Below are positions 20,312 to 25,395 of a stretch of DNA of 56,878 nt, piece by piece; positions within the stretch are counted from its first letter, which is position 1, and the number at the start of each line of letters is the position of its first letter. Source of the stretch: Nitrospiria bacterium (lineage in GTDB: Bacteria > Nitrospirota > UBA9217); contig CAKKRC010000043.1 in assembly GCA_919902495.1 (NCBI GenBank), positions 1 to 56,878 on the forward strand. The letters are read 5' to 3'. Made by a program: the position numbers and the translations under genes. The notes under the pieces were generated by a model. That model ran no database searches. It was not told the DNA's origin and was given only the letters and a program-made list of their open reading frames with translations.

Positions 20312-20340
20312 TTGACAAGAACTCGAATATTTGTTACTCT
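20312..20340 (+). promoter_or_regulatory. Sigma-70 promoter touching the GGDEF gene start
   Basis: TTGACA at 20312-20317 and TACTCT at 20335-20340 are 17 bases apart. Six bases separate the -10 box from the GTG start, predicting a leaderless mRNA. Confidence 0.7.
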
Positions 20341-20346
20341 TTACCC

Positions 20347-21750
20347 GTGAACTTTAGAATCTCCAGGCTTACCGATTTCATCCCGTCAGCACTCCTCGAA
20401 AAACTTATCCCGAAGGAGCTTTTTGCCAGGCTGGACATTGCGAGCAAAATGCTGCTCGGCTATATGATCCTGGTGCTGCTGACAATGGTGGTGATCATCT
20501 ACGCGCTGGTAAGTCTCCAGCGCCTCAACAGCCTCAATAGCAGGATCGTGACGGTCGATGTCCCCGTCCAGGCTACGGCGGAGAAGATGCGCGAAGCGAT
20601 CATAGGCCAGGACAACTACGAAAAACGGTACATCATCCTGAACAGTCCGGATATGCGCACCCTCTTCTATAAGCGCGGCGAAGAGTTCCAGCAAGGGATG
20701 GATGTTTTGCAGAAACTGCCGGATAACCGCCATCTCGCGCTTGCGCAGATCATCGTTCTGTATCAAGAGTATAATGATCTCTTTGCAAAGGAAGTAAAAA
20801 TGATGAGGTCCGGCAATCGAGAGGGAGCGTCCCGCATATCGAACGGGCTAATCAAGAAAAAGTCCGAAAAGATCACGGAAATACTCCTCCAGATGTCGGC
20901 CTCGGCAAATAAGGCGCGCGACGATAAAATGCAGCGGATCAGCTTCATTGGAAAATCAGCGTTTTGGATGACCTCCCTGTTGTCCATCCTGAGCGTGATA
21001 CTTGGCGTCATCGGCAGCCTGGTAGTGACCTACCATATTTCATCGTCCATCAAGAAACTGAGCGTCGCCACGGGGCAGATCGCCGTGGGGAACTTTGATT
21101 ACGATCCGCAGATCAAGAGCAATGACGAGATCGGGGCGCTGGCGACGGCATTCGTTGAGATGGGCAAGCGTCTGAGGAAACTTGAGGAAATGTATCTCGA
21201 TGCAAGTCCCCTTACCCGCCTCCCAGGAGGGATCGCCATCGAGAATGTCATGAAAAAACGCCTGGAAACGAGACAACCGTTAGCTTTTTGCATGCTCGAT
21301 CTGGACAATTTCAAGTCCTACAATGACCGGTATGGATACGCACAGGGAAGCGAACTGCTCAAAGAGACGGCGCAGATCATCGAAAGCGCTCTGAAGGTAA
21401 AAGGGAGTCCCGACGACTTTATCGGCCATATCGGCGGTGATGACTTTGTGGTGATCACGGTGCCTGACCGTATGAGGGTCCTCGGTGAGGAGATCATCGC
21501 CCGATTCGATCGCCGCATCCCCGATTTCTACGATGAAACGGACAAAAAAAATGGATATATCATGGGAAAGTCGCGCCAGGGCGTCGAGATGAAGTTTCCC
21601 CTGATAACGATATCCATCGCGATCGTGACGAATGAACTCCGCGCCATATCCAGCCCACTGGAGGCATCGGAGATCGCTGCCGAGCTCAAGGACTACGCCA
21701 AGACAATTCCCAAGAGCGTCTTTGTCATCGACAAGCGGAGAAACGTATGA
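20347..21750 (+). CDS. Membrane HAMP-GGDEF cyclase, Hypr-like (probable cGAMP or c-di-GMP synthase)
   Basis: The 467-residue protein has membrane segments at about 36-57 and 206-228 that enclose a periplasmic sensor of about 145 residues. HAMP follows (about 229-282), then a GGDEF domain (about 287-440) with a GGDDF signature at 363-367 and no RxxD inhibitory site before it. N326, which should contact guanine, is kept. The usual Asp of the GHxxGD motif is S335 (in YAQGSELL). Serine at this place marks Hypr enzymes such as Geobacter GacA, which make 3',3'-cGAMP. The GTG start fits the leaderless promoter; no Shine-Dalgarno sequence is seen. It overlaps the next gene by four bases. Confidence 0.88.
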   Translation: MNFRISRLTDFIPSALLEKLIPKELFARLDIASKMLLGYMILVLLTMVVIIYALVSLQRLNSLNSRIVTVDVPVQATAEKMREAIIGQDNYEKRYIILNSPDMRTLFYKRGEEFQQGMDVLQKLPDNRHLALAQIIVLYQEYNDLFAKEVKMMRSGNREGASRISNGLIKKKSEKITEILLQMSASANKARDDKMQRISFIGKSAFWMTSLLSILSVILGVIGSLVVTYHISSSIKKLSVATGQIAVGNFDYDPQIKSNDEIGALATAFVEMGKRLRKLEEMYLDASPLTRLPGGIAIENVMKKRLETRQPLAFCMLDLDNFKSYNDRYGYAQGSELLKETAQIIESALKVKGSPDDFIGHIGGDDFVVITVPDRMRVLGEEIIARFDRRIPDFYDETDKKNGYIMGKSRQGVEMKFPLITISIAIVTNELRAISSPLEASEIAAELKDYAKTIPKSVFVIDKRRNV

Positions 21751-22208
21751 TGCGTTATTTGTCCATGCTCATGTTCATTGCATTTCTTGCCGGTGGTTGT
21801 GCCGGTTTGTTTCCCAGTGGCCAGGATGATCTGACGGCCCCGGGGGTAATGAGTGCTGAAGCGAAAAAAATGCTGAATGAATACAAATACCCGGAAGCCG
21901 TAGCGGCATACCAGAAGATCATCCAGGCATATCCAAACTCGGAGTGGGCGGCGAACGCGATCTTCAACATTGCAACGGCCTTCGTTTCCGTGCAAAACCC
22001 CCAAAAGGACTATGCTCAGGCCCTGACACACTTCGAAGATTTCCTCTATCAGTATCCTCAACACGAGCGTGCAGCAGACGCCAAGAACTGGCGCCAGGCC
22101 ATCAAGGTGGTCCTCGATGCGAAGAAGGAGAACGAACGTCTCCTCAAGAACATCGAACAGTTGAAACAGCTGGATATGAGGCAGGAACAGAAGCGGCTGG
22201 GTAAATAG
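21747..22208 (+). CDS. Small lipoprotein with TPR/BamD-like repeats
   Basis: The start ATG overlaps the GGDEF stop (ATGA), which implies translational coupling. The 153-residue protein has a lipobox AGGC, acylated at C18. Two TPR-like units lie at about 45-75 (YPEAVAAYQKIIQAYPNSEWA) and 85-115 (YAQALTHFEDFLYQYPQHERA). A charged coiled-coil tail follows at about 120-153. It resembles the repeat part of BamD or YbgF without being either. The coupling suggests it works with the cyclase, perhaps on its periplasmic sensor. Confidence 0.82.
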   Translation: MMRYLSMLMFIAFLAGGCAGLFPSGQDDLTAPGVMSAEAKKMLNEYKYPEAVAAYQKIIQAYPNSEWAANAIFNIATAFVSVQNPQKDYAQALTHFEDFLYQYPQHERAADAKNWRQAIKVVLDAKKENERLLKNIEQLKQLDMRQEQKRLGK

Positions 22209-24789: not shown

Positions 24790-25395
24790 TTAGAGAGCGG
24801 CCCAAACGGTAGTCGCTGGTGCAGGACCGTTACAGGGGGCAGCGCCAGTAGCACCTGCTACTTCCGATACCGTCGCACTGGCTAAGGCGAGCGGTATACC
24901 ACCAGTAAGCATTGGAGAACCAACAGGACCATTAACCCAATAGATAGGAGTAAAATCTGAATCCATTCCAAAACATCTGTCACCAGCAGCGTTCTTGGCT
25001 CCACCGGTGAAACTGCCGCCGTTGGCGGAGGTAGTCAGCACAAGGCCCACGTTCTGAGAAACACCCGTGTTGAATGTGGTTGCAGCGCTCGGTGAAGTTA
25101 ATGCAACAATGGCAAACTGTCCGACAGTAACCTGCGGGACTGGTGTGGTATTCGTAAGCACAGCGCCTGCACCTGGTCCACCTGTAGCAAGAATGCTCGA
25201 CGCATATACCTGCCAGTCGGAGAAGAAGGCCTCTTCCGCCGTACGGGCGTTCCGAAGGTCAGCGGTCGCGGCCGAGTTATAACCACGTATACGATAGGAG
25301 CTGAACTGCGGGATGGCGATGGCGGCCAGAATGGCGATGATTGCCACCACGATGAGGAGTTCGATAAGCGTAAAACCTTTTTTATTCATTTTCAT
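24790..25395 (-). CDS. pilA: Type IV pilin, PilA-like
   Basis: The 201-residue prepilin has a short basic leader and the cleavage site at G7/F8 (KKGFTLIE), with the conserved Glu at position 5 of the mature chain. A hydrophobic helix covers about 8-30. The globular part is Gly/Ala/Thr-rich and has two cysteines (in DRCFGM and APCNGP) that may form the D-loop disulfide. It is far longer than the roughly 60-residue Geobacter PilA. GGGAGGT lies eight bases upstream. No pil assembly gene is in the window. A sigma-54-type promoter lies upstream. Confidence 0.92.
   Translation of the reverse strand: MKMNKKGFTLIELLIVVAIIAILAAIAIPQFSSYRIRGYNSAATADLRNARTAEEAFFSDWQVYASSILATGGPGAGAVLTNTTPVPQVTVGQFAIVALTSPSAATTFNTGVSQNVGLVLTTSANGGSFTGGAKNAAGDRCFGMDSDFTPIYWVNGPVGSPMLTGGIPLALASATVSEVAGATGAAPCNGPAPATTVWAAL

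Follow-up and report, generated by a model that had tools for sequence, protein, structure and literature searches.

The analysis of the window, a stretch of 56,878 nucleotides from a Nitrospiria bacterium (GenBank assembly GCA_919902495.1, contig CAKKRC010000043.1), revealed a forward-strand gene (positions 20347 to 21750, GTG start, 467 amino acids) whose product is probably a synthase of 3′,3′-cyclic AMP-GMP (cGAMP), more precisely a hybrid promiscuous (Hypr) GGDDF enzyme of the same type as GSU1937 from Geobacter sulfurreducens. This assignment is based on the open reading frame, Pfam and homologue searches, structure matches and a phylogenetic tree, and the reaction product is predicted from the active-site residues and the kinship with GSU1937. 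The preliminary description had already proposed a Hypr-type cGAMP synthase, which is still the best reading, and had noted that a cGAMP branch outside the known genera would be of interest. A probable enzyme of this kind is indeed present in Nitrospirota, for which our literature search gave no report of cGAMP, but the GGDDF Hypr branch itself was already published (PMC8835794). What is new is the occurrence of a GSU1937-type enzyme of this branch in Nitrospirota and its conserved association with a lipoprotein.

The N-terminal part of the cyclase comprises transmembrane helices and a periplasmic four-helix sensor (about residues 31-229, positions 20437 to 21033, forward strand), delineated from the helices of the structural model and from profile matches to 9m08 and to QseE of Escherichia coli. 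A periplasmic sensor had been announced in the preliminary description, and the four-helix structure predicted ahead of HAMP agrees with it. It is followed by a HAMP domain (residues 228-277, positions 21028 to 21177, forward strand; PF00672, 43.6 bits, above the Pfam cut-off) and by a GGDEF-fold domain (residues 289-467, positions 21211 to 21747, forward strand) that carries a GGDDF motif at residues 363-367. The Pfam GGDEF profile (PF00990) is above its cut-off (54.7 bits) and covers residues 289-371, which is only the first half of the domain. The predicted structure (mean pLDDT 84.8, pTM 0.44) combines an elongated sensor of four helices with a complete GGDEF fold, and the structure search matched it over about 150-160 residues to each of three whole GGDEF domains: 5llw (Z 20.8), 6d9m, the GGDEF domain of Geobacter GacA (Z 19.7), and PleD 2v0n (Z 19.6). 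A CHASE3-like similarity of residues 68-190 lies under the Pfam cut-off, and no other output domain was detected by Pfam. Upstream of the gene, a promoter-like TTGACA - 17 nt - TACTCT (positions 20312 to 20340, forward strand), identified by reading the DNA letters only, places a potential transcription start beside the GTG codon (20312-20347), where no ribosome-binding site was seen; because of this location, the cyclase mRNA may be leaderless.

Ser335 (codon at positions 21349 to 21351, forward strand) occupies the Hypr selectivity site, which corresponds to D344 of PleD and to S347/S348 of GacA and which holds Ser or Thr in Hypr enzymes. As first described, it falls on the Asp of the GHxxGD motif: the phmmer alignments to 8qj3 and 5euh are gap-free. 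Ser is also invariant at this site in an alignment of 13 full-length relatives. A local misalignment was considered and is ruled out by the ungapped alignment and by this invariance in the clade. By PleD numbering, the residues N326, D318, K323, D365, D366 and K452 are all in place. The Asn partner, N326, is thus kept as initially reported, and is replaced by Ser in some close relatives. Equally in agreement with the first description, the GGDDF signature comes without any RxxD inhibitory site, the Arg being replaced by S354 while D357 remains; without this site, no GacA-like inhibition is expected.

A survey of Hypr enzymes established that a Ser at the selectivity site requires GGD at the metal position (Goldilocks rule) and that cGAMP is favoured when the cross-dimer residue is not an Arg (Hallberg et al. 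2019, PMC6456294). The third motif residue of the cyclase is Asp (D365), as this rule demands, and its cross-dimer residue (Y304 in GacA) is G295, as judged from the motif register only (LT.LPGGI versus LTGL.NRR). The fourth residue is Asp (D366) and not Glu, and so differs from the GGDE[F/Y] of the 2019 survey. This difference no longer excludes Hypr membership since GSU1937, which has the same GGDDF, is active (PMC8835794). A Ser at the base-reading site is found in at least three GGDEF proteins of the window's genome. Two GGDEF proteins of this genome whose N-terminal part is GAF-like in appearance, L016 (G000:C47:18448-18930) and L021 (G000:C10:44535-45023), combine it with a Tyr in NYR (a GacA-like cross-dimer residue) and with a GGEEF motif; the association of Ser with GGEEF is predicted by the Goldilocks rule to be inactive and absent in nature (PMC6456294).

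GSU1937, which associates a HAMP domain with the Hypr Ser and a GGDDF motif, has been reported as a second Hypr enzyme in G. sulfurreducens (PMC8835794). Its deletion decreases the signal of a cGAMP reporter by ~25% on fumarate and by ~70% on Fe(III) citrate. When its domain is grafted into GacA, the resulting chimera produces both cGAMP and c-di-GMP in E. coli, an activity that is lost upon the change to GADDF; wild-type GSU1937 and three of the four chimeras were inactive in this host. The same work mentions a GGDDF Hypr branch with "many homologues within Deltaproteobacteria" (PMC8835794). Like GSU1937, the cyclase associates HAMP, GGDDF and the Hypr Ser and has no other catalytic domain. 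Exactly one homologue per genome was found in 51 of the 76 Geobacteraceae genomes. Nearly all these homologues are full length and co-linear with residues about 21-30 to 461-464 of the cyclase (sensor, HAMP and GGDDF); they share only 34-39% identity with it, and the cyclase belongs to a different phylum, Nitrospirota. All those that were read (30/30) carry the Ser together with GGDDF/Y, and their C-terminus is of the GSNY/F type. GSU1937 is tied to this Geobacteraceae group through peptides encoded by its deletion primers (PMC8835794) and not through its own sequence: their translation gives VQKLIAS and STPGSNY, two peptides compatible with the termini of the group, and VQKLIASF is present in the homologues L177 and L185. 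A pattern search with a deletion primer in the 76 Geobacteraceae genomes gave no match. Within the GTDB family of the window's genome, the orthologues of the cyclase (56-91% identity) all have Ser and GGDDF.

In a tree of 92 GGDDF domains, the difference between Asp and Ser corresponds to one change. The Ser clade (45 rows, support 99/90) gathers Nitrospirota, Thermodesulfobacteriota and other former Deltaproteobacteria. Nearly all its members carry the sensor, whereas the Asp side consists almost entirely of short proteins devoid of it. Deep placements in this tree are unsure because it is built from single domains and includes several long branches. Since Ser is shared by the 13 full-length relatives and by the 30 Geobacteraceae homologues, and since a single change accounts for it on the tree, Ser335 is not a chance substitution. 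Asn arises three times inside the Ser clade, once in a paralogue from the window's genome (L030, G000:C45:126672-128000, forward strand), which is 46% identical to the cyclase over its full length, has Asn at the selectivity site and lacks the lipoprotein motif gene behind it. In an RpoB tree, the window's genome falls within Nitrospirota, the families of its phylum joining the named Nitrospirota genomes with full support.

The preliminary description had taken GacA (GSU1658/Gmet_1914; 6d9m) as the reference, but GSU1937 fits better. GacA shares with the cyclase the base-site Ser, the metal-site Asp, a non-Arg cross-dimer residue and the fold; however, it has a Rec input, a GGDEF motif with Glu in fourth position and an I-site (R393), whereas the cyclase combines a membrane sensor with GGDDF and lacks the RxxD site. 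These differences in input domain, motif and I-site led us to reject GacA as the nearest characterized relative.

The gene located directly downstream (positions 21747 to 22208, forward strand) overlaps the stop codon of the cyclase gene by its start (ATGA). It encodes a lipoprotein of 153 amino acids with a lipobox (Cys18), two TPR-like repeats and a C-terminal helix of 44 residues (109-152) that carries a conserved motif, KKENERLLKNIEQLKQLDMRQEQKR. A lipoprotein with this motif is encoded directly after 52 of the 58 Ser-type sensor cyclase genes versus none of the 42 short Asp-type genes. This count relies on a leave-one-out score of the 23-residue C-terminal motif and concerns the Ser-type genes with at least 480 bases downstream; the 58 genes are not 58 independent events because many of them are near relatives. 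The pairing spans Nitrospirota, Geobacteraceae, where the gene lies directly behind the GSU1937-type homologues as it does in the window, Syntrophales and other groups. Among the six exceptions, four belong to a single Nitrospirota clade of Ser-type cyclases (L072-L074 and L080). Our literature search, which covered few subscription journals, gave no report of this pairing; as far as this search reached, a lipoprotein partner conserved across two phyla is undescribed. A type IV pilin-like gene is found ~2.6 kb beyond the lipoprotein gene (positions 24790-25395, reverse strand).

The chances that this lipoprotein controls the cyclase appear about even. A less probable, though serious, alternative is a generic BamD/YbgF-like TPR lipoprotein that belongs to the same operon and plays no role in the control of the cyclase. 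Its TPR part does match BamD and YbgF by sequence and by fold, fold searches returned generic TPR proteins, QseG not being among the listed matches, and the resemblance to QseG is not significant (see below). However, a generic lipoprotein fits poorly with the specificity of the pairing for Ser-type sensor cyclases and with a conservation that is strongest in the C-terminal helix, where L139 is the sole invariant residue of a 16-sequence alignment. Furthermore, at L061 (G020:C71), where a histidine kinase carries a related sensor, a lipoprotein gene is also adjacent, as in qseEGF, with a weaker motif score (21.9).

Profile comparisons indicate that the sensor of the cyclase is detectably related to that of the histidine kinase QseE. 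Searched against the PDB, the sensor profile matched QseE of 9m08 (chain C) with an E value of 7.1e-6 over profile positions 8-204, before HAMP. It scored 25.1 bits on E. coli QseE compared to a maximum of 8.6 in 2000 shuffles of the first 170 residues of this protein; these shuffles and the PDB served as controls. Chemoreceptors rank above QseE in the PDB search, largely through their HAMP domains. The outer-membrane lipoprotein QseG activates QseE by direct binding through its C-terminal region, and R70 and R73 of QseE are located at the interface (PMC12691602). These two residues align with N90 and K93 of the cyclase, whose EKR at 92-94 sits at Arg73 of QseE, and position 90 is an Arg in Geobacteraceae members. 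As in the QseE-QseG system (GlrK and its accessory lipoprotein; PMC12691602), a four-helix sensor precedes HAMP, the lipoprotein gene is located directly downstream and the conserved part of the lipoprotein is a C-terminal helix. The two systems differ by their output (histidine kinase versus cyclase) and by the TPR repeats of the cyclase-locus lipoprotein, whose likeness to QseG is not significant: the QseG window that best fits its motif is the QseG binding helix, but 1699 of 5000 shuffles equal or exceed this score. By analogy, the arrangement looks as if it worked like QseE/QseG, although the lipoprotein is not established as a QseG family member. Another outer-membrane lipoprotein that controls an inner-membrane HAMP-GGDEF enzyme, as proposed here, is known in the YfiBNR system. 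There, YfiB sequesters YfiR, a periplasmic repressor, and YfiN makes c-di-GMP; unlike in this system, no YfiR-type gene is adjacent to the cyclase gene.

Altogether, the protein would be an inner-membrane cyclase that senses the envelope, in which a HAMP-driven dimer would join two GGDDF domains to condense GTP and ATP. Ser335, in place of Asp, would let either purine bind, Asp365 would keep the metal at the distance imposed by Ser, and the cross-dimer base would be Asp366, yielding 3′,3′-cGAMP and some c-di-GMP. The periplasmic four-helix sensor would set this activity. The lipoprotein encoded in the operon may mediate this control, its C-terminal helix contacting the sensor in the way that QseG contacts QseE. 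We tentatively propose that a QseE-type sensor and its lipoprotein are wired to a cGAMP synthase in Geobacteraceae (GSU1937) and Nitrospirota alike, the lipoprotein crossing the periplasm, binding the sensor and switching the synthesis; both this binding and the sign of its effect are inferred. The literature search found no described input for GSU1937. The lipoprotein, whose gene is located behind the enzyme gene almost everywhere, is a concrete and testable candidate for this role and, if the proposed switch is real, would supply the input that has been missing for GSU1937 in metal respiration. Should the lipoprotein indeed control the cyclase, events at the outer membrane could feed directly into the second messenger by which Geobacter regulates its respiration of extracellular metals.

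Several points were counted against this reading: the divergence between Nitrospirota and Geobacteraceae members (about 62-66% of the sequence), the inactivity of wild-type GSU1937 and of three chimeras in E. coli, the c-di-GMP also made by the active one, the loose co-occurrence with A20 riboswitches (see below) and the lack of significant likeness between QseG and the lipoprotein. With these taken into account, cGAMP synthesis is still the probable activity. That the enzyme is in practice a diguanylate cyclase, in which Ser only costs selectivity, with c-di-GMP as the main cellular product, is unlikely. The GSU1937 chimera does produce c-di-GMP at a level comparable to that of GacA (PMC8835794), and the window's genome carries ~30 GGDEF genes as well as G20-type GEMM-I riboswitches. 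However, the deletion of GSU1937 strongly lowers the cGAMP reporter on Fe(III) citrate (PMC8835794), the Asp is lost and the Ser kept over the whole clade, and the Arg that favours c-di-GMP is absent according to the motif register (rule of PMC6456294). Even more improbable is a degenerate, non-catalytic GGDEF domain that would bind nucleotides or a partner, the sensor and lipoprotein signalling by protein contact: the Pfam match is weak and of half length, GGDDF replaces GGDEF and degenerate motifs are often inactive (discussed in PMC8835794), but the whole clade retains the residues that bind the metal, the base and the phosphate, the GGDDF domain of GSU1937 is active unless changed to GADDF (PMC8835794) and the cyclase is devoid of any other output domain.

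The cGAMP made by this enzyme would act via A20-type GEMM-I riboswitches. The genome search called for by the preliminary description found three GEMM-I matches in the window's genome, of which two exceed the gathering score and the third falls slightly short of it. One of those above this score, L032 (G000:C94:9916-10023, reverse strand), is an aptamer with A at position 20 (the eleventh base of the match) and lies ahead of a gene for a small lipoprotein. Next to the aptamer comes a strong terminator, in which the 5′ arm overlaps with the 3′ strand of P1; this layout points to an ON switch. A second A20 class, 87% identical (67/77 positions) to a Geobacteraceae aptamer, was found in the sister genome G001 and in the relatives G006 and G010 and was not found in the window's genome. 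Overall, A20 riboswitches are present in 9 of the 14 genomes of the GTDB family, some of them without any detected Ser-type gene, and some genomes with a Ser-type gene show none; this co-occurrence is loose and is therefore not used as proof. The aptamer type of L032 also recurs in many Nitrospirota families, including beyond the genomes that encode a Ser enzyme. Position 20 is described in the literature as a selectivity factor and not as a hard filter, and from their sequence the A20 riboswitches would have cGAMP as ligand. This work would extend Hypr cGAMP signalling to Nitrospirota, whose genomes also hold A20-type riboswitches.

The riboswitches of the second A20 class (L310, G001:C76:223500-227100, L311 and L312) are in tandem in G001 and G006 and precede a lipoprotein-like gene with CxxCH haem-binding motifs. 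For another Rfam family, c-di-GMP-I-GGC, the literature search found no statement about the ligand; a match to this family (L031, G000:C74:28490-28567, forward strand) is located in the window's genome before a gene whose product starts with a CxxCH-rich, cytochrome-like stretch.
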